NCBI GenBank assembly: GCA_030272155.1
Contig: CP126199.1
Span: forward strand, 930,001-994,000
Origin: Tetradesmus obliquus
Taxonomy: Eukaryota; Chlorophyta; Chlorophyceae; Sphaeropleales; Scenedesmaceae
DNA: 64,000 nt
Direction of reading: 5' to 3'
Positions within the stretch are counted from its first letter, which is position 1. Every line of letters starts with the position of its first letter. The notes beneath the pieces are model-generated. The model made no database searches. It was not told the origin of the DNA and was given only the letters and a program-made list of their open reading frames with translations. A program made the translations under genes and the position numbers. Positions 1,346 to 63,666 of the stretch are shown one piece after another.

Positions 1346-4300
1346 GCAGCAGGTGGCAGTGCTACCTCACTTGGCAATGCTGGAGCACGCTTGGGCAGCC
1401 GAACTGCATAGCCGTTGCATTACATGCTTTGCAGGTGGTGGTGTGCAAAGGGGGCCCTGCGTGCCCTGGAGTGCCAGCAGCAGTGTGTTACTAGTGCCTG
1501 TGGCTGTTCACTGCTGGGAGTTGGATTGGAGGAGATTTGTTGCAGGAGGCTGATCAGGTCTGATACTGCTACTGCAGACACCTTCCATGCCTTGCCTGCG
1601 CTGCCCTTTGCTGCTTGCATACTTGCTGAGCACTTGGGTATTACAGCGCTGTTATAAGGCGGATGTCTGTTTGGGTTTATGTAGCGTTTGGGTGGGCTTC
1701 TGGGGCTCAGTTCTGGCCAGCTGGCACTGCTTGTGTGCAGAATAACATAATAACATAAACAGCGACGTGTGGTGGATGCTATGCATGGATTATGCCTGTC
1801 GGCTCATGCACAGCTGCTGTGCAGCGCTTGATGTCACTTGGCTTTGGCAACAGCATGCCATGTGGGTGGTTTGGGGTGTTAACAACATACTGTGCGGGCA
1901 TGCAGCGGTTGTGGAAGATTGGCATGTGGGTGGTGGTCACAGCACACCGTGCGGGCTTGCTGGACATGCATAGTTGTGTATTTGCCATGCGTGAAACTGT
2001 CTTTCCACATGCAGATTCTCGTGATGTGGGAGGATCGTGCGTGGGCCCCAAATCAAGCAGCTGTTTGGTGCATGTTGGTGCTGATGCTGAGCGCTACTGC
2101 ACACCGCAAGCACATCTAAAGACATGCACAAGCCTGCAGCAGCACACTTACAGATCGGCTGTGGGGCACTTTTGTGTATGCAAGCACCTCAACAGCACCA
2201 CATAGCAAGCACTGAGAAGCAGCCGTCAGCAGCATTGGCATACAGTGGAGCTGGATGCCGCATCAGCCGGCTGTGGTTCTTTGACTTTGTCATTTTCGGA
2301 TGAAGATCAGGCATAATGTACACATACACAGGGAGCATGGGCGTGGAATGGGGCTAGGGGATTTGCGTTTCCGCGCCTGCGTATAAGACATGCAATTAAC
2401 ATTGTAGGTGGCGGCGTGCTGGCGACTCTTGGCGGGCAAATCTGCTGCGTAACAGGCAAGGGTGCTTGCATCGCTTGCGTTGGCTCAATCTTGGCTAGTC
2501 TGCTCGGCTACGCTACCTGCGGGACAACTGGGAAGGGCGCAGAGTGCTTGCTGTGTTTGCAAAGCACTACCTCATCAGTGCACCGCTTCGGCACGGTTAG
2601 ACAGCTACTTGGTGGTGTTCTATGCTGCAACAGTTGCGTTGCTGTGGTTAAATGATGATAGGGCGACTCAAGTACTTACGGATGACCCAAAAGAAAGTCC
2701 ATGTGCGGGTCTGAGCGGGAAAGCGTGCGGTGTTTCAGCTTTGTCATCGTGTGATGGTGCTTCCAGTCTGCCATCCTTCATCAGATGCAGAGTGTGCTGT
2801 ACTTGCAAGATGCTTGTGTTCTCCGCTGCTGCAGCAGAAGCTAACACGCACGCTGCTGTACTTACTGTCACATGTTGCTGTAGATCAGGGGAGCACGTCC
2901 CAATGCTGGGGCACTAGGGGATATGGTCGGCTGTGGTGGTGGCTGTGCATGTTGGAGCAATAGGTGTTTTTCAGGTTACACACGGCAGCTCTCTACATGC
3001 TAGTTGAGCTGCTTGACTGCTGCGGCCACGGCATAGCAGACGCTGGAGCAAACAGTAGAAAGCCAGCGCATTTCTCGCATGTATGCCGACATTGTCATGC
3101 GACCATGCTGCCGTTAATGCTGCTGCTGTGCTTGCGTCACCATGTGTGCTGGCACCTAGCTACTGTATCATACATAGCTCATAGGCAAAGTGTGGCTGGC
3201 AATGCCTTGCGCTTCGTTGTTGGTTGGCAGCTAACGCCTGGTGCGTTTCTCAGATATGTGCGCACACGCATGCATCTGCTGATGCGGATGCACTGCCTGT
3301 TATGTTTGCTGACCGTCCAGCCAGCTCTGGAGGCAGAAGCAGAAGCACAAGGAGCACCTTACGCTGGTTCTCAGCTCACACAGCTCCACTTGTTGCCTGG
3401 CAAGGGCTGTAGTCGACAGGCCTGTAGTGTTTTGACCCATGACTTTGTGACTCGTGCTGGCACTGTAGGTTGAAAGGTCCGTGCTGGATATGCAAATGAG
3501 CTGGCTGGCGGCTGGCTGGGCTGTGTTCAGTGTAAGGTGTTTTTTTCTGTTGCAGAGGTCTGACATATCCTGCAAGTGTGTTGTGTTGTTGTAAGGGCCT
3601 GCTCACCAGCCAGGTTGTGAGCAGCAACGGCACCACAGCAGCTGAGGATGAGCTGAGTTGGCAGCAGCCAGCAGCTGCTGAATGGGGCGGTTAGTTGGAC
3701 GTGTATGGCGCTTGCTGCGCGTGGCTGTTGCATTGCTGTGCGCAACACAAAACCAGCACAACGTTGTCTCTGCATGTGCATTTTGACGTCCCGTGGGTAC
3801 CTTGACAGAAAGCAGTTAAGGTTTTGCTTTTCAGGCATATGCGGCAGCTGGGAAAGTGGCCATGTCATCACTGACCCTGGTTACATAGCCACATACATGC
3901 ATGCGCACACACAACGCATGCGAGTTGTTCCATGCAACGCTGGATTGGCAGTTGATGCACTGCAGCAAACCAAGCTTACACAGCTTTTACAGTAGCACAG
4001 GCACCGCTGCTTCATCTTCTTTTGTGCCCTGCTGCGTCACACATGCGCGCATGGTCACAATACTCGACTTCTTTCCTGTTGCTCTGCTGCAGGAGCCTTT
4101 GCAGGATGCAGCAAATGAGTCCGAAATGAGTCCGATGCTAGAAATCTGGAGACTGGCTGCACGCGTTCACAATGTTTTTGCTACGGTGTTATGACGGTGG
4201 CTGTGCATTGGTGATTGAAGGATCAAGGATGGTGTTGCTGGTCCACCATGCACAGTTCAGCTTATGGTGCAGACGCTTGGGGTGCAGCCGGTGTTGTGTG

Positions 4301-26166: not shown

Positions 26167-29157
26167 ATCCGATGTTTTTCTCAGCGTGTTGAAAGTCAAG
26201 CTCGATAAAGCGATAACGCTTGCTGATGATACGAAACTGTTCTACTTATGTGCGATTTGTCTATCAAGGCCAGATCAGGGTCGTGAAGCACCAGTTAAAC
26301 CACATCAGGGCCCATGACGGCATGACATCTGTACTGCATGGAACAGGCTGTGACTGACAGCACAACACCATGGATCAAGAGTTGCAGGTCACACATTGCA
26401 AGCACTATGCAACATATCACAACCATGTGTGCACACGTCAAAAATGCACTGCTGTCACGCTGTGCAAGACGTTCACGTACAAGTGCATGCCCACGCAATG
26501 CATCAGTGCTGACCATCCAATGACAGCTCTCCCGCGGTCAACAAACCGCTTGATGATGAAGCATGCCTCTGCACTTGAGTTCAGCCAGTGCATGGCAACA
26601 GCCGCCACATTGAGGACATCATGCCGAGGGAAAGACACAAAGGGGCATCATACGCTTTAGAAACACTGGCGCAGCTAGCAACCTTCAGTGCTGAAGCCAT
26701 AACAAGTACACAGAAGCCATGCCAAGTACACAGAACGTAGGAGGACTATGTGCATGATGACCACGTGAACAATCATGCTCTTGCAAGCATGCAACACGCT
26801 CATGGCAGGCAGCAACTGGTTGCAATCAACCTGTGGCTGGCCAACAGCCAAGATGGCGTGGTCAGAGGCTCTGGTTGCAAAGCAGTTGCAGAGGCTGTGC
26901 GCACAGCTCCACAACTTGGATTTGTAGCACCAACTGCCAGCAGCAGCCATACACATAAAAGACAATGCATCAACGCGCCTCGCAAAGAAAACACAGAAAC
27001 CTGCTTCCTCATACATTACGTGGACGAGCACATCTACTCAAGGGTTTGTATGCCGTGTATGCTGTGTCTCAGACGCACACCCTGACAAGTAGTCTCACTC
27101 GTGCACTGCGCTGCACATCAGCAGTGTGAAGCAGTGCTAGCTCCAGGCAACCACCTGCAGTGCTGGCTGCCACTGGCTGCTCACACTGAAAAACAGCACA
27201 TCAAGCAGACCCTGGCATCAGCGCCAGCAAAAGGCATGCAATTTCTTCTGCACAGTGACATAAAGACACCATGCGCCACGAAGCACCAATAAGCAGGCCC
27301 TTCCATCTGTTGTTAAACAACAATGGCTCACACAGGCTTCAGCACCAGACCAGAGCACTGGCAGGCAAACCTGCATACAGCCGCAGCTGCAGCCTGCCCA
27401 CCAAAATACAAAAAAACGATGTAGGTAGGAAGCCCTTACCGATTCCCATTCCGCAGCAGCAACAACGCAGCAGCACACACAACACGCAGGCCGCTTTTGC
27501 TGGCCAGACACCTACATACACTGCCTACACATGTCGCTCATCCTGCAGACGCTGCTAGCCGCCAAGCCGCTACAAACACCGCCCAACTGGCGCAATGCTG
27601 AGCAGAAGCTGCTGAGCAAACAAAGGCGCAAAGACACTCAAGCTGGCACAGCACAACACGGCACGCGCATGCCGGTCTCAACAGACACAAACGCCTCTGA
27701 ACACCTAACACAGAAAACCCAGGCAACACCAAGCCAGCAGCCTGCCATCCACAGGCAAGGCTGAACGGCAACTTGCGTGCACTACCATGCAAGCTGTGCT
27801 GCATGTGCAATGTATCCGTAGCCAGCGTTAGCAGCTGCACATGGATACTACATACCCCAAGGCAGGTACGTGCCCCTTGCCTTTGCTTGGTACACCTCCT
27901 CCAAACATACAAAACAGCCTAATGTCAGTGCTGATTCAGGAGGACGCATGACTACGTGCAGAATGTATGTGAAGGAAGCTCTTAAAGCAAATACGGTGTG
28001 CATCTGTGGGCGAGTGGCGCACCGATAACTAAGACAACTGTGATGCACAACTGTGATGGACAACTGTGCGAAACAGAAGGCGTGGTTGTGCATGCAGCGC
28101 CTGCATTCGCAGGGCCTGTTGATACTGCCAACACTGTTCATACCTAGCCGTAATCCCCAATGCTGTTGAGCTGCTGCCAAAGGCAGCAGCACTAGGCACA
28201 GCAACCCTCTGCCATAGTAAAAAAGTAAGTGGCAGAAACAGGCGTATCTAATGACAGCGACAGACCAGCTGTCTCAACAACAGATGCGTAACACATACGC
28301 TGGGCTGATGCCATGCTGCCCTTGAACCCCTACACCATTACCGTCAGTGCTGCTCTTATTCAACAATGCTGCCAGTCTGATGTACCATCGTCTCCAAAAG
28401 CGACTCCACCCTCTCCACCCTCTGCAAAATGAGAGAGGATAGTTACATGTGGGTCCTGGCACCATCTTGGATAATGCTTATAAGCAACTGCACCGTCTGC
28501 AAGGCAATCGCACCGAATGCTGCTGCCATCGCATGCAAGGGGCAAGGGATGCAAGGGTTTGTATGCTTGGCCACGCAAGCCCCTTGTGCTGTTGGTCACA
28601 CATGCCCTATGCAGCCTGACCGCATCCTCGTTCAAGAGTTCTGCCAGGAAAGCTACTCACTTGCTCGCAACACAAATTTAAAATGCTATCTCCTGCAAAA
28701 ACCCACCTGTGTGTTTTGTATGATACAATGGCGCACACACACGGTGCTCCCACATGCCCCCGGTCAGTTGCTGAGGCCAACCGGCAGCCACCAGTACTCT
28801 CCCGCCACCCGTATGAAGCACCATGACACGCTGATAGCACCGCACAGCAGATTAATGTCTACCCCGCGATGCAGCACACAGCGTACATGGACACAGCGCT
28901 CAAGGGCTTGCCAAGAAGCCAATAGCACCTAGCCAGGCATTGCCTTGTTGTCCTTATGTTCATGCTGCTGACCTCGTAATAGTTATGCATGTGGCGCTGT
29001 GTATAATTCTAGCAAACGCCGTTTTGTCGTGATGACATCTTGGTCATTGTACATGCCAGCCACACAACCAATAACATGCACATCATTGCCTGATCAAACA
29101 CCTGGCCAGCAGCAACGCCTATCACAGAGCCACACCCAAACAACGAAAGGAGCCGCG
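26167..29157 (-). other. Gene-poor tract downstream of the membrane-protein gene
   Basis: C/A-rich on the plus strand, hence TG-rich on the minus strand, the sense strand of the gene ending at 29158. TTACA at 28443-28447 is a possible poly(A) signal for it. No frame of more than 170 codons and no family match seen. It also contains the upstream region of the unknown gene starting at 26166. Confidence 0.4.
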
Positions 29158-52112: not shown

Positions 52113-53828
52113 ATGGCGAGGGACGATGGAACAGACGGCCCTCCTGCCAAGAAAGCACGTCCCACCAGTGTGAAGGATGTGGTGGTGCAGAGGGCCGCTG
52201 GGCAGCATAAGCGCAGGCAGCAGCAGCAACAGCAGAAGCAGCAGCAGCAAGGACCGCCCGGTGCAAAGGCAGCTGGGCGTGGCATGCTCACACTTGAGGA
52301 GGTAAGCTGCTGTTAGCTGCATATTCTATCAGTAGCTGATGCAGCAACAGCACTGCCGAGTCCATGCTGCAGTCTCTGGCGTTGATGCTGCTGCTACACC
52401 AGCGGCAGCATTGCCAGTGTAGATCACAGCTGCAGTGCAAGGCATGCTTGTTGGGAACTAGATGTGCTTGCTAGCAGCAGCACCAGCAGCAGTTATGCTG
52501 TCAAAGTATGCTCCAGCTGTCAAGCCCAGGTTGAACATGCAGCGCATGCTGTTGCAGCTGCGCCACACAGAAGCATCAGCAGCAGCACTGTGACATGCAC
52601 CAGTGCGTGCGGCATCATGCGCAGCTGCACATGCAATACTGTTAGGGCCGTGATCAGCAGCAGCACCAGCATCCTTTTGTGTGCATGGTGCAGCAAGGGC
52701 AACTGCGGCAGCAGCATTACACCAGTCACCTAGCTTCCTAGGATTTCGGGGAGTGTGTGTAACTGCAGTGCGCCAGCTGTTGCCGCCAGCCGCAGCTTGC
52801 AGTGCTGGTTAACACAAGTCTGATCTGCCTTACCTTCGCTTATATTAGCGAGCCTTTCTGCGCAGTTGCACTGTGCTTGGAAGCAGTGGCGTTCTGTAGC
52901 TTTTGCATGCCAAGCAAGCGTTTCCTCTCTTGCTGAGAGACACACACATCTTACACGCACACACCCATCTGCACTTCACTTGCCAACATGTGCACACCCA
53001 TCATGCTGCTGAACCTGCTGAACATTCACGTATGCCGCTTCGTGTTCTTTTGCATACACCTGCCACTGGTTGTGCCTGGCCTCCCTCAGATCGCTGGCGA
53101 CCGGCTGACGCAGCTCGCAGCCAAGCACTGGTCAGACACGAGCACACCCATCATGCTGCTGAACACTCATGCCGTCTCTTGCACGCCTGCCGCTGCTTGT
53201 GCCTGCCCTTTCAGATCGCTGGCGACCGGCTGACGCAGCTCGCAGCCAAGCACTGGCCCAACACATGCACACCCATCCTGCTGCTGAACATCCATGTATT
53301 GCCGTCTGCTTTTACAAACACCTGCCGCTGCTTGTGCCTGCCCTCAGATCGCCGGGGACCGGCTGACGCAACTCGCAGCCAAGCACTGGTCCGAGGCTGC
53401 GCGCGCGAAAGAGGAGCAGCAGCCGTTTGAGCCGCAGCTGGTGCAGCAGATCTACAAGCAGGAGTTGGGCGGCGGCAGGGACAAGCCGCCGCTGCTGCGG
53501 CGCGTGATGCTGCTGGAGGTGCGGCGGCAGTTCTGTTGTTGTGCTGGTGCTGTGGGGTGTGCTGCTGCAGCTGCTGATGTATGATAATGATGCTGGAGGT
53601 TCGGGGCTAGTTGATGTTCAATGTGCAGTTGTGTATGTTGGTGTGTTGTGTGCAGGAGTGTTTTGCAGCAGCTGGCGGAGGACACTACGTTGTGGTAGCA
53701 AGTCAAGTAATCACACCTGCATGATTGCATTTTTAGTGCATTTGAAAGCATGCCAGCAGGAATGTGTTGCACCCTGGCGGTCGACAGCACCCCGGCAGCA
53801 TAACGGACTGATTGTGTGTTTCGGCCGC

Positions 53829-53869
<41 letters not shown>

Positions 53870-56800
53870 AGGTGTCCCAATACCTGGAGGGCTACCTGTG
53901 GCCGCACTTTGACCCCGCAGCCGCCAGCGACGCGCACGTGATGAGCATTGCAGTCATGGTCAATGAGAAGTTCCGGGAGGGCGTGCCGGCCTGGACAGCC
54001 TTCCACAGCAGACAGGTGCGGCAATGCTTATGAATTGTTATGGTGCTTGAACTCCTCTGTGTTCAGCCACATGCATCCTGAAGTCCTCCATGGGCATTAT
54101 GTTGTCGGCAGCAGCAGCGCTCCATCGGCCCTGAGAGACGGCTAGTTCACAGCAACGCATGTGCAGCTTCTCTGCCAACCATTTGAATGCGCGTCCACCT
54201 ATTTAAGCAGTTTTGGCTCTCCTATATTTTATAGCACAGTCATGACCTGTTGATAACAGTCATACAAATTGTTTTTAACTGTTATGCCACCTGTGTGCCT
54301 GCAGGAGGTGTTCCCGGGCTTCTTCAGTCGGCTGCTGGCGCTGCGGCTGCCGGAGCGCTGGTCACAGCTGGCGCAGCACGAGGCCACGGCCTACCTGCTG
54401 TTCATGATCAACGCATTCCAGTCGCTGGAGGACGAGATGGTTCGGCCGCAGGTGAGAGCTGCAACACTATTAGAAATAGTGATTGTGAAGGGTTTTATGT
54501 ACACGTCCTGCTGCTGTCTGTTATCATTGTGCCAGCCGTTGGAGGATGAGGTGGTGCCGCCGCAGGTGAGAGTTGCAACAGCTTGATTACAAAAGTTGTT
54601 CTGGCCGCCATTTGGCACTGCTCAGAAAATCTGAGGGTTTGAGGAGGTTGAGCAGGATGTTACAAACATGCTCCCATCCTCCATTATGTTGCAACTGAGA
54701 TGCTGCTTTTCTGTGGTGCCCTTTGCCGTGCTTGAACTCCACACCTTTGTTACTTTTCGCCAGGCGCTGCGCCTCGTGAGCCTGCCGATCTGGCACGGCC
54801 TGAGCCACGGCCGCTTGCAGCTGGAACTCGCTGCGCAGCCTGCACTCGCCAAGCGCTGGAAAGCGCTGCTGAAGAAAGAGGCCAAGGCAGCAGCAGGCGG
54901 CGGCAAGTCCAAGAAGAAGGACAAAGGCAAAGCCAAGGCAGCAGCAGATGATGCGGCAGCAGGGGATGCGGCGGCGGCTGATGCTGAGGGGTCAACAGCA
55001 GCAGCAGCAGCCGCAGCGCCGCCGGCCGAGCTGCCGAGGGCTGAGGCAAGCTTTCTGCCAGGCATGATTCAGGAGTTCTTGAGCGTGCTGCGCGCTGCTG
55101 ATGCTCAGCTGGCTGGGCAGCAGCAGCAACAGCAGCCGCAAGCTGCAGCAGAAGCAGAGGCAGATGAAGAGGATGAAGAAGAAGCGGAGGAGGAGGAGGA
55201 GCAAGAAGCAGAAGATGCTGCAGCAGAGGCTGAAGTGGAGCCTGCAGCAGCAGACAATGCACTGACGACAGCAGAAGATGCAGCAGCAGCACAGAACGGA
55301 CACCAGCAGCAAGGCGGCAAGCAGCAGCAGCAGCAAAGCCGCAAGCAGCAGCAGGCGCGCAAGCAAAAGGAGCGCAACCAGCGCAAGCAGGCGCAGCGGA
55401 TGCAGCTGCGCCACTTGGAGCGCTTTGTAGAGTGGTTGATTGATTTGCTGAGTCAGCTGCCTACGCGGCGCTTTGTGCATGCCCTGCTGGAGGACCAGCA
55501 GCTGCTTGTCAAGGTAGGGCGCGGTTTTGTTTGACTTTGCGCTACTCTGCGCAACTTTGTTTTTGCACACACAAACACACACACAACACACACAAACAAA
55601 CAGCACTTGTGTTTGGCTAATGCATAGTGAGCTGTGAGTGTGGAGGCTGCTGCTGCGGCAGCTGCTGGGCATGATACCTGATTGCTTATAGCCCAACACT
55701 GCTTGATGCGCTGATTCGTCTGGCCATGCAGGCGCGCCGCTCCGCGCTGTACAGCTCGCCGGGCGGCAAGCTGCTGCGGCAGCTGTTGGACCTGCTGGCC
55801 TTCTACTGCGACTTCCCGCTGAATGACCACACCGGGGAGCAGCTCAAGGAGGACGACGTGGTGGCGGGGCACTACGACAAGGTGCGACGGCTGTTACATT
55901 GTTATGTTGTTTTTTATGTTGTCAGTAACCTGGATGGCTTATGTGTATGTAGGGCGGTTCTGCTGCTGATATGGTATGTCTTGGGTGCTGCATGTGGGGA
56001 AACGGGGAAGCCAGTCGTAGGAGTCGAGTGAGTTGGTTAGCCGTATGCGTGGTGGATTAACAATTGCTGGCGTCACGTCTGCTTTGGAATTTTAAATAAA
56101 AACGTGGCAGCCGTATGGCACGCGTGTGGCCAGTGATGAATGACTCAGCCACTGGTAATCGGCGCTGCTTATGCCTGGCACAGCCGTGCCGTGCTGCTGC
56201 TGACACCATGTCTGGACCTATGACCGCCTCACCGAGCATGCACACGATCAGAAACATAGTGCTTGCTTTGACAATGCGTGATCTCTGTGCACTTCACTCG
56301 CCGCATGGCAGGCAGATGCATGATGCAGTATCCTGCCCCGCTGGCACTTGCTGTGCTGCTGCGTCTTGGCCTGTGATGAATGACTCAGCCATGGGTAAAG
56401 TTGCCTGTATGTTTTATGACGTGAAGCCTTGGTGCAGTGTGTGCATGGGCAGTGGATCCACACAGTCATCAAGAAGCCATTCTCTATCACCAGCAAGAAG
56501 CAGTTGGTGATGGGCAAAACTTATGGTTTTTGTAGCAAGTACTGCGGCATGTACTGCGAGCTGTGCATGCAGGGTGGCTGTGGTGTGCGGGCCGGTGATG
56601 AATGACTCAGCCATTGGTAATTGGCGCTGCTGAGACTTGGCTCCTGCCAAGGCTCCTGCTGACACCATGTCTGGACCCCTGACGGCCTGTGAACATCTGT
56701 GGAGTACTGTTGCCGACCGTCTGTTGTATGTTATGTTTGTATTTGCAGCCTCTGATGGCGTTTTTTTCAGAAAGCCAACAAATAGCAGTCCGCAATGGCC

Positions 56801-57482
56801 ACAAATCATGGCCGTGTTGTTCAGTGCTGTGTACTGTGCATGCACAGTGTGGATTGCTGTGTATGGGCCTGTGATGAATGACTCAGCCATTGGTAAACGG
56901 CGCTGCAGAGGTATGGGCATTGATGCCTTATGCTGCTGCTGACACCATGTCTGGACCCCTGATGGCCTCACACTACTAAGATTGGCACATTGGCCTTTAC
57001 CGTCTATTTGAATAGGCATGTGCTGGTGATCATGCATTCTTACTGTGTGGAACCCATGTTGATGCCGTTTGCGATTGTGTACGTGTGGGTGCCTGCATAT
57101 CACAATTGAGAAGTTCTCAAGCAGTCCATGGTCTGTGGTAAGCTATCGCAGGCAGCAGACACCTGTGCACATCTATCTTCTTTTTAAGTCGACACTCGCG
57201 GCTGTTGTGTGTGGCCCGTGACGAATGACAACGCTACTGGTATTACAGCAACGCTGAGCCGGCTTTGCCGCCACTGCTGACACCATGTCTGGACCCCTGA
57301 GGCCTGCTTCGTACTTCATATCGTACATTTTGGACCATTTGTGAAGTGCCGTGCATACTGTCAACAGCTATCTGGCTGGCAACGTGCCGCAACTGGGTAG
57401 ATTAATGCCTCGTTGTTGACCCTTTCCATGCCAACCGTAATGCTTGCTTCAGCTGCCCATGCATACTCATGAACCGGCTTCG

Positions 57483-57543
<61 letters not shown>

Positions 57544-60500
57544 CACCTTGCAGGTCTCGCAGCTGCAGCGGCTGTTCTTCAAGCACTGGCCGCAGCTGTA
57601 TGACCTGGCGCTGGCAAACTGCGCAGCTGCCTGCGCGCCGGACGGCCTGCGCCGCGCGCTGCGGCAGCTGGCGCCGCAGGAGCTGGTGCAGCTGGTGTGC
57701 CGGCAGCTGCGGCTGGTGGGCGAGGACGACCCCTGGGCACAGGTGCGGTACATGCGGTTTGACCAGGTTTGCAGGGTTCAGAGTACAGCTGTGGTACTGT
57801 TGATGGTTGTATTGTGAGCTGCGGCTGGTGGGCGAGGATTACCCCTGGGCACAGGTGCAGTTTTGAGCAGGGTTGCAGGTTTTGGAGTGCGGCTATTGCA
57901 TTATGTATTTATTGTTTGTTGTGAGGTGCGGCTGTTGGGCAAGGCCGACCCCTGGGCACAGGCGGGGTGACCTATTGTACGACATTCTGGTGACTAGCTG
58001 CTGCTGTGTTTGGGCACCTTTTATCAGGATGAAGGCGGCTTCTGGTTCAAACAGATTCAAGCATATGCATAGCTACGAGCCTTGCTGAATGAATCATTGT
58101 GCTTCATGCGTGCAGGACCCGGACTTCCTGCTGGACGTGCTGGTGTCCACCTACCAGCGCCGCGCCAGCCAGCGCGCAGCCATCAACGCCATGCCCATCT
58201 ACCCCACAGAAGGGCTGCTCTGGGACACCACACAGGTACGGCTTCTTGTGCTTTGTGCCAGCCATTGCACGCATCTGTAAGTTGCGGCGGGTGCAGCTCT
58301 GGGGTGTGAAGATCAGAGGTCCAAGGTTCAGACTGCCTTCAAGCTTGCTCCTCACGGGGTTAGTTTGAAGCCCAGCCAAACAGCCAACGGCACCTGCTCA
58401 CAGTGACAGCTGGGCTCCCTCCACATGTGTGCATGCGTGTCAACGTATGAGCCACTGGCATTCGAGTGCAAAATTCCATCGCACATGATATGTCTGCGCG
58501 AGCCCGCAGGTTCTCAGGGTCTAGCATCTTTGTAAGCGTGCGGTGTGTTGCTCAGTATTGACATGTGTCTCCCAGTACTGACGCGCAGATCCCCACTGCT
58601 GCCTACTCCAATGGCGCCCCCCTGGCGCTGCCCAAGCTCAACCTGCAGTTCCTCAGCATGCGTTCGCACCACACAGACCTTGTTACACTTGTCAATTCAT
58701 CTTTTCTTGGCATGCAGATACCCACAGGCCTACTCTGGTAGTGCCCCCTGGCCCTGCCCAAGCTGAACCTGCAGTTCCTCAGCATGTGTGCGTACCACAC
58801 AAATCTTCTCACATTTGTCCATCTATCTTTTTTACGATGCAGATACCCCCCGCGGCCTACTCCGGTGGCGCCCCCCTGGCGCTGCCCAAGCTCAACCTGC
58901 AGTTCCTCAGCATGCGTCGGTACCACACAGACCTTGTTACACTCTTTTCTTGGCATGCAGATACCCACAGGCCTACTCTGGTAGTGCCCCCTGGCCCTGC
59001 CCAAATTGAACCTGCAGTTCCTCAGCATGTGTGCGTACTACACAAATCTTCTCACACTTGTCCATCTATACTTCTTGGCATGCAGATCCCCACCGCGGCC
59101 TACTCCGGTGGCGCACCGCTGGCCCTGGCCTAGCTCAACCTGTTCATCAGCATGTGTGCGTACTACACAGATCGATGACAATCATGCCTCTTTTCTTTTT
59201 GTCTGCAGATCCCCACGGCGGCCTACCCTGGTGGCGCACCGCTGGCGCTGCCCAAGCTCAACCTGCAGTTCCTCAGCGTGTGTGCATACCACACAGACCT
59301 TCTTACACTTCCATCTATCTTTTCTTGATCTGCAGATCCCACCGCGGCCTACTCTGGTGGCGTCCCCTTGGCCCTGCCCAAGCTCAAACTGCAGTTCCTC
59401 AGCATGTGTTGGTACCACCCAAATTGACGACAATCATCCGTCTATCTGCTTTTCTTGGCATGCAGATCCCCACAGCGGCCTACTCCGGTGGCGCCCCCCT
59501 GGCCCTGGCCTAGCTCAACCTGTTCATCAGCATGTGTGCGTACTACACAGATTGATGACAATCATGCCTCTTTTCTTTTTGTTTGCAGATCCCCACGGCA
59601 GCCTACTCTGGTGGCGCACCGCTGGCGCTGCCCAAGCTCAACCTGCAGTTTCTCAGCGTGTGTGCATACCACACAGACCTTCTTACACTTCCATCTATCT
59701 TTTCTCGATCTGCAGATCCCACGGCGGCCTACTCTGGTGGCGTCCCCTTGGCCCTGCCCAAGCTCAAACTGCAGTTCCTCAGCATGTGTTGGTACCACCC
59801 AAATTGACGACAATCATCCGTCTATCTGCTTTTCTTGGCATGCAGATCCCCACAGCGGCCTACTCCGGTGGCGCCCCCCTGGCCCTGCCCAAGCTGAACC
59901 TGCAGTTCCTCAGCATGTGTGCGTACCACACAGACCTTCTTACACTTGTCTACCTATCTTTTCGTGATCTGCAGATACCCACGGCGGCCTACTCTTGTGG
60001 CGCCCCCCTGGCGCTGCCCAAGCTCAACTTGCAGTTCATCAGCATGTGATTGCACCACACAGACCTTCTTACTCTTGTCCATTACAGATTCAATGCAAGC
60101 ATCTGTTTTGCCTTTTCTTATTTGCAGATCCCCACTGCCGCCTACTCCGGTGGCGCACCGCTGGCGCTGCCCAAGCTCAACCTGCAGTTCCTGAGCCCCT
60201 CCGACTACCTGCTGCGCAACTTCCACCTGTTCCGGCTGGAAGCAGCGTACGAAGTTCGCGAGGACATCGAGGTGAGAACAGTACTGGGTGGGAAGTTCCG
60301 GGTGGGAAGTTGACGTTGAACTGTGTGGTTCTGTGCGAATGGCAGCTACCTGCTGGGCCACAGCAGCGGCATGAAGCTTCTGGTGGGAAGCTGCAGCTGC
60401 AAGCGCCCAGCTGTGTCGACTTTACAGTGCTAGCCAGCAACATGCTGCACACAAGCGACGCCGCAGCATTCTGGTCGCCAATCTCCACCGCTGATCATCA

Positions 60501-63500
60501 ACTTCAGCCTTGCATAACTATCCTTATCATCACGGCGCACCGTCATGTTGATTCTGAACATGCTTCTCAAATGCTCGGTGCAGGTGGCGCTGCAGCGGCT
60601 CAACCCTGGGCGCGACTTTGACGACAACATTGTGTTCAGCGGCTGGTCAAAGATGGCCACGCCCCTCACCTCCTTCCGCATCACCCAGGTGCGGGGCAGG
60701 GATTGCCTGTGGTGCGCAGCAACTTGCAGGGCAGCATCTATGCTGGAATCCTGTTTCTTGCACGGCACAGCACAGCAGCACTCACTGTGGATGCCGCCCT
60801 TACGGCAGGCGTGCAGCTGTCTGTTGCAGCGCACAGTGTTTGAGCTCATCAAATGCTCTCTCAGCTTCCTGCAAATGGGGCACTTGAGCAGCAAGCAGGT
60901 GGTTCGCCTCCGCATGCTTCACAGGTCTGTTCAATGCACAACAGCGAGCATGCACCCCGAGGCACACGGGCAGCAAGGGTGCGGCTGGCCTCCCATGCAT
61001 TGCAGCGCTCCCCTTGCTGCTTACAACAATGTTTTTTCGCTTTTCCTTGCAACAAACGCTCGCCCGCCTGCCTGCCTGCCGCGCTGTGCGCATAACCATG
61101 TTTCAGGTGTCTGCACCGCGTGTGGGTGAGGCGCACCCAGCCAGTGTGCTGGCAGAGGTGGTGGTTGACACGCGCGGCATGCGTGGTGACGTGGCCAGCG
61201 GATGGGATGAGCTGAAGCAGCACGACGTGCTGTTCCTCATGGGAGGTGAGGCGCTGACTTATTTTCAGCAGGAAAAGCCACCCACTAGTTTGCTTTTTGA
61301 GCTGAAGCAGCACAATGTTTTCAATCAAAATGGGAAGTGAGGGGCCAGCACACCAAATCTTCAGCTGCAGCTGTCGGTTTGCAATCACCTGTTTCTGACT
61401 TTCTGCTGTGCCTCTGCTGCCCGCTGGCATGTTTGGCTGTGCTCCCCGCAGGCAAGCCGGCTGCTTACGAGCCCATCCCTGACGTAATCATGTGCCTTGC
61501 ACCCTTTGACAACAGATCTCCACACCCTGTCTACCTTTTCTTTCTCATTCGTGCTCGCAGTGAACCCGCCCAACGAGCAGGAGGCCGCAGAGGCCGCGAA
61601 AGCAGCGCGGCTGCGCAAAGGGCAGCCGCTGGTGCAGCGCGTGGGGCTGCGCAGCTGTCTTACAGCACTGATCATCCGCCCTCGTGTTTGGCTTGCTGCC
61701 TGCAGGCAAGGCGGCTGCTTACTAGCCCCATCTCCGGCGTTATCGTGCATTTTGCACCCTTCCTGCACCCTTTCCAACCAACCTGCACACTCCTTGTCTT
61801 TCTTTCCTCGCTCTGCCCGCAGTGAACCCTCCCAACGAGCAGGAGGCGGCAGAGGCCGCAAAAGCAGCGCGGCTGCGCAAAGGGCAGCCGCTGCCGCTGG
61901 TGCAGCGCGTGGGGCTGCGCAGCTGTCATACAGCACTGATCATCTTCCCTCGTCTTTGCCTGTGCTCCCCGCAGATAAGGCGGCTGCTCACAAGCCCCAT
62001 TCCTGACATCATCGCACATTTTGCACCCTTCCTGCACCCTTTCGAACCAAGCTGCACACTCCTTGCCTTCCTTTCCTCAATGATGCGCGCAGTGAACCCG
62101 CCCAACGAGCAGGAGGCCGCAGAGGCCGCAAAAGCAGCGCGGCTGCGCAAAGGGCAGCCGCTGCCGCTGGTGCAGCGCGTGGGTCCGCGCCGCTGCCATA
62201 CAGCACTGATCATCCGCCCTCATGTTTGGCTGTGCTCCCCGCAGGCAAGCCGGCTGCTTACGAGCCCCATCCCTATCGTAATCGTGTATCTTGCTCCCTT
62301 TATCAACACATCTGCACACCCCTTGTCTACCTTGTCTTATTCTTGCCTGCAGCGAACCCGCCCAATGAGCAGGAGGCCGCAGAGGCTGCGAAAGCAGCGC
62401 GGCTGCGCAAAGGGCAGCCGCTGCCGCTGGTGCAGCGCGTGGGGCTTCTGGCGGTGCGTGGCGCTGAGGTGGTGGAGGTGCGGGACGAGGAGGGCGGCCT
62501 GATGAATGACTTCACGGGCAGGGTGCGGCTGGACGAGCGCAAGCCACCCAAAGGTAAGGCAAATGACGTGAGGCAGATAGATGTGAGCAAGTAGCAGGGG
62601 GCCACAGCAGGCGCTGAGCAGCCATGGTACTGGTTCATGGTATGCAGGATCACCAACGGCAGGCTGTGTTACATGAATCTGCTAAGTTGCGCCCGCCAGT
62701 CACACCACCTGGGGGGATTCCCTCATCAAATGCTCATGAAATGCAGACAGCTACAACGGCATGGCCTGACATTACGTGAACATGTATCATTGGAGTCTTC
62801 GTGCGCACATATGTGGTGGCGCTGCACGCTGCTCGATACCAGCTGGACGTGAACGCGACTGCATGGCTGACACATGAACCTAATTTTCCTCACTGCCGCA
62901 GGCTTTGCGCGCACGTATGTGGTGGCGCTGGATGCGGCTCAATACCAGCTGGACGTGAACGCGACTGCATCGGGTGATGCGCCGGACGTGTACCCGGCGC
63001 TCAATGTGGTCATGCGGCGAGATGCCAAGGAGAACAACTTCAAGGTGCGGCTGCAGGGCTGGGAAGCGGCGATGCGTGCACAAGCAGAATAACAGCGCTG
63101 TGTGTGTTGCGCGCTGGCATGAATGCGATTGGGGTCCGGTTTTGTGCCGCAGCGGCATATTGCAAAACAGCTGTTGTGCATGTCATGTACGCCTATTTCG
63201 CTGCCTCTAGCACGTCAAATAGTAAGTAGGTCTGCGGCCAATCCTGCTGCTGTTGAAACCTGCTGCATGCTCTGCCACACAACATGTTCAACACCAGGCT
63301 GTGCTGGAGTCCATCCGTGACAGCCCCAACAGACAGCTGGTCACCTTGTGCTGCTGCTGTTCTCCCAGCATCGCCGTGGCATTGTCCGCGTTAGCATGTA
63401 GTCAACGAGCTGTACATGCACGCCTCATTTTCGTCGCTGCATTACTCTTCCTTTTAATTTGGCATGATATGTGGCTAACCTTGCTGCTGCCAAACTGTCA

Positions 63501-63666
63501 TGCGGCTGCCAAACTGTCGCAGGCCGTGCTGGAGTCCATCCGTGACAGCCTCAACGAGCAGCTGGTCATCCCTGAGTGGCTGGTGGACATCTTCCTGGGA
63601 TACGGGGACGCGGGGGCGGCACACTACAGCGCAATGCCGGGGCTGCTGCGCACAGTGGACTTCAAG
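52113..63666 (+). CDS. AQR: Intron-binding protein Aquarius (AQR/IBP160), N-terminal 14 exons, partial
   Basis: Model: join(52113..52301, 53348..53518, 53872..54015, 54305..54451, 54764..55513, 55732..55881, 57554..57742, 58116..58235, 60128..60271, 60584..60688, 61107..61245, 62353..62553, 62902..63044, 63523..63666), 912 codons; the helicase half lies beyond the window. Aquarius is an RNA helicase-like subunit of the spliceosomal intron-binding complex; it contacts the intron upstream of the branch site and couples splicing to intronic C/D snoRNP assembly. Family blocks in order: [35 protein letters not shown]-like [98 protein letters not shown] and [18 protein letters not shown]. Exon 5 carries K/A- and E/Q-rich inserts (about residues 255-425) absent from animal AQR. 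A next exon may start at 63990 after CTCTACAG. Confidence 0.96.
52985..53347 (+). repeat. Array of partial AQR exon 2 copies upstream of exon 2
   Basis: Acceptor plus [14 protein letters not shown] appears at 53090 and 53215 before the real exon at 53348 (spacings 125 and 133 bp). The shared intronic part (cacacccatcatgctgctga, cacctgccgctgcttgtgcc) starts near 52985. The copies leave the exon sequence just after KHW. Confidence 0.95.
53831..53871. repeat. (CTG)n microsatellite at the AQR exon 3 acceptor
   Basis: About 13 CTG units directly followed by CAG|GTGTCC, so the repeat serves as the 3' splice-site tract. Confidence 0.93.
54535..54572 (+). repeat. Partial copy of AQR exon 4 3' edge with donor
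   Basis: LEDEVVPPQ followed by GTGAGAG repeats [16 protein letters not shown] of exon 4, about 113 bp downstream in the intron. Confidence 0.85.
56128..56228 (+). ncRNA. Box C/D snoRNA-like copy 1 in AQR intron 6
   Basis: C box GTGATGA at 56133-56139 and antisense ATGTCTGGACC just before the end, but the D box reads ATGA (56220-56223) instead of CTGA and the terminal stem is weak. Probably a decayed copy. Confidence 0.5.
56368..56400 (+). repeat. Truncated snoRNA-like copy 2 (5' part only)
   Basis: GTGATGAATGACTCAGCCAT at 56373 matches the other copies, but no antisense element or D box follows. Confidence 0.8.
56588..56689 (+). ncRNA. Box C/D snoRNA candidate, copy 3 (best), AQR intron 6
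   Basis: C box GTGATGA at 56595-56601, D box CTGA at 56679-56682, and outside them a terminal stem CGGGCCG (56588-56594) with CGGCCTG (56683-56689), six Watson-Crick pairs and one G-U. The ~102-nt length is normal for C/D snoRNAs. The element before the D box, ATGTCTGGACCC, is complementary to the highly conserved 18S rRNA segment GGUCCAGACA; the fifth base before the D box would direct 2'-O-methylation to the first C of GGUCC. I recall human SNORD66 carrying a similar TGTCTGGGCC guide for 18S Cm1272. No clear C'/D' pair is conserved between copies. Confidence 0.72.
56865..56968 (+). ncRNA. Box C/D snoRNA candidate, copy 4, AQR intron 6
   Basis: C box GTGATGA at 56871-56877, D box CTGA at 56959-56962, same antisense ATGTCTGGACCC. 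Flanks GGGCC (56865-56869) and GGCCT (56964-56968) can form a four- to five-pair stem, with a U-U apposition where copy 3 has a G-C pair. Confidence 0.68.
57213..57304 (+). ncRNA. Box C/D snoRNA-like copy 5, AQR intron 6
   Basis: C box altered to GTGACGA (57218-57224), D box CTGA intact at 57297-57300, antisense ATGTCTGGACCC intact, GGCC flanks on both sides. The middle has diverged. It lies about 250 nt before the 3' splice site. May be a variant or a decaying copy. Confidence 0.5.
57485..57541. repeat. (CTG)n microsatellite before AQR exon 7
   Basis: About 19 uninterrupted CTG units, the longest in the window, just upstream of the CAG|GTCTCG acceptor. Confidence 0.95.
57815..57966 (+). repeat. 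Two partial copies of AQR exon 7 3' edge with donor region
   Basis: CTGCGGCTGGTGGGCGAGGA then CCCCTGGGCACAGGTGC recurs near 57819 and, more diverged, near 57927 (gtgcggctgttgggcaaggc). Both are downstream of the real exon end at 57742. Confidence 0.9.
58589..60127 (+). repeat. Array of 12 partial AQR exon 9 copies with acceptors
   Basis: Twelve copies of acceptor plus [23 protein letters not shown] start at 58589, 58718, 58843, 58961, 59086, 59209, 59336, 59466, 59589, 59716, 59846 and 59975; the full exon starts at 60128. Spacing is 118-130 bp except the last (153). Each unit has ~70 bp of exon head and ~55 bp of intron tail (cttctcacacttgtccatct). Spacings 123-127-130 occur twice in a row, so units 5-7 and 8-10 form a 380-bp higher-order repeat. 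Some units have lesions, such as CTGGCCTAG introducing a stop. Confidence 0.97.
61300..61346 (+). repeat. Partial copy of AQR exon 11 3' edge with donor-like end
   Basis: gagctgaagcagcacaatgt repeats gagctgaagcagcacgacgt of exon 11 and ends gggaagtgagggg, about 90 bp downstream of the real donor. Confidence 0.85.
61440..62352 (+). repeat. Array of three partial AQR exon 12 copies upstream of exon 12
   Basis: Acceptor plus [20 protein letters not shown] then QPL(PL)VQRVG occurs near 61560, 61822 and 62091; the real exon at 62353 alone continues to [18 protein letters not shown]. Spacings are 262-269 bp. Each unit also carries a second conserved block after a CAG ([10 protein letters not shown] at 61450; variants at 61706, 61974, 62245), which could be a skipped micro-exon. 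Confidence 0.95.
62795..62866 (+). repeat. Partial copy of AQR exon 13 5' edge
   Basis: [20 protein letters not shown]-like sequence (cgcacatatgtggtggcgct) precedes the real exon 13 ([20 protein letters not shown]) by about 105 bp; one base change breaks the copy's frame. Confidence 0.9.
63292..63346 (+). repeat. Partial copy of AQR exon 14 5' edge with acceptor
   Basis: [19 protein letters not shown] precedes the real [17 protein letters not shown] by about 225 bp, then becomes intron-like. Confidence 0.9.

Follow-up and report, generated by a model that had tools for sequence, protein, structure and literature searches.

An intron of the AQR gene in the green alga Tetradesmus obliquus very probably holds a cluster of paralogous box C/D small nucleolar RNA (snoRNA) genes, old local duplicates that are predicted to guide a methylation of 18S ribosomal RNA (rRNA). 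The intron is located at 55882..57553 on the + strand of the window, the whole stretch of 64,000 nucleotides (nt) that was analyzed (assembly GCA_030272155.1, contig CP126199.1, positions 930,001 to 994,000). Self-comparison of the intron revealed an element of ~100 nt, present in four full-length copies (c1, c3, c4 and c5) and one copy of the 5' half only (c2). All are on the sense strand of this single intron, and two to three carry intact boxes. A C box (RTGATGA) is situated near the 5' end, reading GTGATGA in c1 to c4 and GTGACGA in c5; towards the 3' end c3, c4 and c5 have the D box CTGA. Internal box candidates, CTGCTGA for C' and CTGC or CTGA for D', surround a central hairpin. Beside the terminal boxes a stem of up to 9 base pairs (bp) with wobbles is formed in c3, of 5 bp in c4 and of 4 bp in c5.

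Copies c3 (56588..56690) and c4 (56865..56968) are complete. In c3, the stem GGCC (56590-56593 / 56684-56687) encloses the C box (56595-56601), the D' candidate CTGC (56627-56630), the C' candidate (56656-56662), the guide (56667-56677) and the D box CTGA (56679-56682). The same order is seen in c4, with the stem GGCC at 56866-56869 / 56964-56967, the C box at 56871-56877, the D' candidate CTGC at 56903-56906, the C' candidate at 56936-56942, the guide at 56947-56957 and the D box CTGA at 56959-56962. Copy c5 (57213..57305) has the stem GGCC (57213-57216 / 57301-57304), a C box with one change (57218-57224), the D' candidate CTGA (57254-57257), the C' candidate (57274-57280), the guide (57285-57295) and the D box CTGA (57297-57300); its 5' element has diverged. 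Copy c1 (56128..56229) retains the C box (56133-56139), the D' candidate CTGC (56165-56168), the C' candidate CTGCTGA (56197-56203) and the guide ATGTCTGGACC (56208-56218), while its D box has decayed to ATGA (56220-56223). From c2 (56368..56430) GGCC, the C box (56373-56379) and the conserved 5' element are left; a 3' half, a guide and a D box were not recognizable in this copy. The C boxes start at 56133, 56373, 56595, 56871 and 57218, which gives spacings of 240, 222, 276 and 347 bp.

Five of the six pairs of full copies could be aligned by BLAST along most of the body, with an identity of 72-81 %; between c4 and c5 the alignment is piecewise. A covariance model derived from the four full-length copies scored these, by construction, with 87-116 bits and recovered the omitted c2 at 31.6 bits (rough E 4e-8). 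Four weaker matches were obtained, the best of them at 57588-57648 with 16.2 bits (rough E 0.006); it is located in the next exon and was taken as chance rather than as a further copy. A relaxed box scan of the intron yielded only one extra weak pairing, 56507/56630.

The intron begins with GT at 55882, ends with AG at 57553, measures 1,672 nt and has AQR exons on either side. Five of the seven exon pieces matched Aquarius models in a Pfam search, two had no match. The pieces before and after the intron were both assigned to Aquarius_N_1st, with E 3.2e-13 at profile positions 248-309 and E 3.7e-9 at positions 311-370, hence in order. Comparison of the joined exon query with the PDB led to AQR chains (best E 1.2e-78), and judged by its exons the host gene is AQR. 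The preliminary description, a 1.67-kb AQR intron with five copies spaced 222-347 bp and differing in decay, at least two of them with C box, D box, GGCC stem and an antisense of 10-12 nt, agrees with these observations: c3 and c4 are intact, c5 has a single change in the C box, c1 has lost the D box and the fifth copy, c2, is a 5' half.

Predicted guide and 18S rRNA target

The stretch that precedes the D box is a predicted antisense of 10-12 nt to the 18S rRNA segment AGGUCCAGACA(U); its invariant part ATGTCTGGACC pairs with GGUCCAGACA(U). Pairing was analyzed on four 18S sequences called eukaryotic small subunit rRNA by Rfam, one from a contig of a viral collection and three from bacterial records (L031 to L034). 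The duplex is 11 nt long on three of them and 10 nt on L033, whose 18S is yeast-like, with one pair more for c1. On all four 18S the antisense run is separated from the D box by 1 nt in c3, c4 and c5, and it directly abuts the decayed one of c1 (0 nt). For each copy the guide pairing was the best run against each 18S, and none of 60 shuffled guides reached its score of 11. An antisense of at least ~10 nt just upstream of the D box was present on all four. One record, titled Planomonospora, a bacterium, contains at 2050-3849 a full-length eukaryotic 18S of yeast length plus a 5.8S (L033); the eukaryotic rRNA in a record titled as bacterium is probably a contamination. L032 and L034 likewise contain eukaryotic rRNA.

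In box C/D snoRNAs the methylated nucleotide is five positions from the D box. By this rule the first C of GGUCC is the predicted target, residue 1215 in the 1,800-nt 18S of L033. It would correspond to residue 1272 in human, because the offset in the table of PMC11542601 is 57 at the neighbors Um1269/1326 and Gm1271/1328 (this and the other articles cited by PMC number are used for single passages or table rows). A single row of Table 2 in that article contains Arabidopsis Cm1219, tomato Cm1218 and human Cm1272, and in the same row the cells for yeast and Ostreococcus are empty. SnoR166 is listed for Arabidopsis 18S C1219 (PMC8053127), and Cm1219 has been predicted from SNORD72 (PMC8351944). 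By this alignment of positions the predicted target C coincides with a 2'-O-methylation site published for plants and human. The guide had been proposed in the preliminary description to end at the D box and to address this C; it stands in register on the four eukaryotic 18S.

The alga's own ribosomal DNA (rDNA) was sought in its assembly of 104.66 Mb in 17 contigs. The 5.8S family had 0 matches in the assembly, in a search whose nine named control genomes were all prokaryotic and hence gave no eukaryotic positive control; the 18S stretch had one match, which was not rRNA, and the guide target together with part of the 18S stretch had none. The rDNA is probably missing from the assembly, and therefore the duplex was checked only on the 18S of other eukaryotes.

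Conservation, chance and rival explanations

Both strands of the 64 kb were scanned for places at which a perfect C box and a perfect CTGA lie 50-130 nt apart and a stem of 4 bp or more is formed. Three matches were obtained, all on the + strand, namely c3, c4 and 29029-29093; the - strand had none. The last is the sole other combination of perfect C box, CTGA and 4-bp stem in the window and may be chance, as shuffled windows yield about one such match each. Boxes and stem alone are weak evidence, because 200 shuffled windows, both strands included, had an average of 1.1 matches; at least three matches occurred in 15 of the 200 and at least two matches of 5 bp in 12 of the 200. For one strand of 40 shuffles the mean was 0.275. 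With the box and stem scan nearer to chance, we lowered the weight of the snoRNA cluster to the level given above and raised that of the two rival explanations below. Repetition, the conservation pattern and the register of the guide exceed chance.

Within the 31-nt segment up to and including the D box, 27-30 positions are identical in all six pairs of full copies. The 30 nt starting from the C box share 28 of 30 positions among c1, c3 and c4 and 19-21 of 30 with c5; among c1, c3 and c4 these two segments are 90-97 % identical. The 60-nt flanks, upstream and downstream, have 12-19 identities across full-copy pairs, and random pairs of spacer 60-mers have a mean of 15.4 with a 5-95 % range of 10-21. 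By BLAST, the similarity reaches ~30 nt into the upstream flank of c3 and c4 and a shorter distance in c5. The copies look constrained, since the box and guide regions are conserved while the 60-nt flanks are at chance level. Boxes and guide kept with the rest drifting is the pattern that old, selected snoRNA duplicates would show. The local duplication suggested in the preliminary description is likely, but it must be considered old because the spacers no longer resemble each other. The central segments differ in letters and length, yet fold as a hairpin in the four full copies (p of 0.075 for c1, 0.017 for c3, 0.037 for c4 and 0.23 for c5; Fisher combined 0.0037).

Several observations, the shuffled windows among them, weigh against functional snoRNA genes. 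An Rfam scan of the window gave no family at gathering score, SNORD66 reaching 15.5 bits at a cut-off of 32 (E 4.6); the alignment of its UGUCUGGGCC to the guide of the copies counts in favor of the snoRNA reading. The 18S pairing rests on rRNA of other eukaryotes that is not known to equal the alga's own, and other wobble-containing runs to rRNA, away from the D box, score up to 10.5 compared with 10-12 for the guide. The strongly conserved 5' element had no established target among the rRNA tested, for which the longest large subunit rRNA covered model positions 1-2310 of 3401. Singly, the hairpin had p <0.05 for c3 and c4 only, with segment limits set after the folds had been seen. Whole-copy folds were not unusually stable in any of the four full copies (z of -0.22 for c1, -1.88 for c3, -0.18 for c4 and +0.93 for c5). 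An extended outer stem was notable in c3 only (p 0.004), with p 0.08 for c4, 0.34 for c1 and 0.69 for c5, the last computed with a wrong 3' end, and the 5' flank of c3 pairs better with the 3' flank of c4 than with its own.

All copies may be dead snoRNA relics in a tolerant intron, the site being served by another gene or unmethylated. The decay in c1, c2 and partly c5 would fit, as would the lack of the site in the yeast and Ostreococcus columns of Table 2 (PMC11542601). We regard this as unlikely, as boxes and guide were kept while the flanks were randomized, c3 and c4 are intact, and searches of the 104.66 Mb by similarity and exact patterns revealed no other gene with guide and boxes. Such a second snoRNA gene for the same site, named in the preliminary description as a possible objection, was sought by similarity and by exact patterns, which a diverged guide would escape; none was obtained. 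DNA similarity gave four matches in the assembly, all inside the AQR intron. The exact guide followed by CTGA had three matches, all three in the AQR intron, and a shorter guide with a longer gap had four, three in the intron and one on contig 15, which was rejected because the 110 nt before it hold no perfect C box. For the 11-mer antisense to the guide, 22 occurrences were counted, including the 4 copies themselves; it is not enriched, since the reversed control occurred 34 times. A repeat or a short mobile sequence with only a superficial likeness to C/D snoRNAs would account for five copies at irregular spacing and for boxes and stem near chance, but is hardly credible with DNA similarity confined to one intron (four matches, all there) and with conservation of precisely the C box, the D box and a guide in register to a known methylation site.

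The 5' element and the surroundings of the cluster

In addition to the D guide, the copies might contain a D' guide to 18S near GCG(C/U)UGAUUAC, since c1 pairs there over 10 nt, with one wobble, adjoining its CTGC candidate. This addition is improbable: the pairing was equaled by 5 % of 60 shuffles for c1 and by 30 % for c3, it is not kept in c4 or c5, and the rows consulted in the table of PMC11542601 contain no methylation site at this position. A self-targeting of AQR was rejected for both elements. The longest antisense outside the intron was 9 nt for the 5' element, equaled by 27-31 % of 500 shuffles, and 7 nt for the D guide, equaled by 98 % of 500 shuffles. With up to three mismatches, the 5' element was found at 125 places in the genome, compared with 10 for a reversed control; this excess may be an effect of composition. 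Six imperfect places among those listed were inspected and rejected as copies (L043 to L048), L044 to L048 having no perfect C box there. At L043 (own contig 1, ~762.7-762.8 kb) two matches to the 5' element, 102 bp apart, seem by eye to belong to a duplicated exon start of an RNase Z/J-type protein, a duplication similar to exon-edge repeats in AQR.

Local tandem duplications are abundant in AQR and at its edges (52977-63568), which contain 8 of the 14 short-range arrays of the 64 kb, the snoRNA array included. By eye several of these resemble repeated exon edges, among them ~12 units of 126 bp at 58585-60082 and ~4 units of 270 bp at 61430-62446. A pure (CTG)~20 run at 57484-57542 directly precedes the 3' splice site of the intron, a position at which a polypyrimidine tract is expected.

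Proposed maturation and known systems

Kink-turns formed by C and D boxes recruit the core proteins 15.5K/Snu13, NOP56, NOP58 and fibrillarin. The copies, on the sense strand of AQR, would be transcribed with the AQR precursor messenger RNA, their kink-turns would recruit these four proteins, and the snoRNAs would be released from the intron by cleavage or trimming. The guide preceding the D box would then pair with 18S rRNA, and fibrillarin would 2'-O-methylate the C that opens GGUCC (Cm1219 in Arabidopsis, Cm1272 in human), five positions from the D box. Copies c3 and c4, perhaps also c5, are probably working genes, while c1 would have been disabled with the loss of its D box and c2 would be a remnant.

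In mammals, AQR/IBP160 is a spliceosomal protein by which the assembly of C/D small nucleolar ribonucleoproteins (snoRNPs) is coupled to splicing. It aids this assembly from a binding site 33-40 nt upstream of the branch point, the snoRNAs themselves being located at 40-50 nt (PMC8162545, PMC10234308). In the AQR intron, 253 nt separate the 3' splice site from the nearest D box; a plant-like route, with clustered snoRNAs processed from a longer precursor (PMC7671301), would therefore fit better. A feedback, in which snoRNP assembly on the intron alters AQR splicing or turnover and the AQR level sets the snoRNA output, is very unlikely, and any coupling to AQR would differ from the mammalian one since the copies are far from the mammalian optimum. 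As the host gene codes for a snoRNP assembly factor, the question of self-hosting arises. Intronic snoRNA clusters being already known in green algae, the host gene AQR is the noteworthy element. Among the matches listed in the literature, with subscription papers mostly outside, no title or abstract opening concerned snoRNAs in an AQR intron. The cluster provides a concrete guide candidate for a plant and animal 18S site without a yeast or Ostreococcus entry in the table rows of PMC11542601, and presents one snoRNA family at several stages of duplication and decay within a single intron.

The copies are filed as a putative new family of box C/D snoRNAs; their clustering in an intron is an arrangement known from green algae. 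Arabidopsis SnoR166 and human SNORD66, the latter assigned to Cm1272, resemble them in the antisense to the same 18S segment and the same predicted C; SnoR166 was compared by its listed target. In the Rfam consensus of SNORD66 the antisense precedes an internal CUGA, whereas in the copies of the AQR intron it precedes the terminal D box. For Chlamydomonas reinhardtii, Chen et al. (2008, Genetics) reportedly described snoRNA gene clusters, intronic by the title. With this green alga the AQR intron shares the clustering of snoRNA genes in multiple isoforms (PMC7671301). Unlike those clusters, the AQR intron holds one guide family only. It resembles human SNORD116 in that a single C/D snoRNA is repeated within the intronic sequence of one host (PMC8162545), but differs in having five copies in one intron and a predicted rRNA target. 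In human SNORD116, each intron contains one copy.

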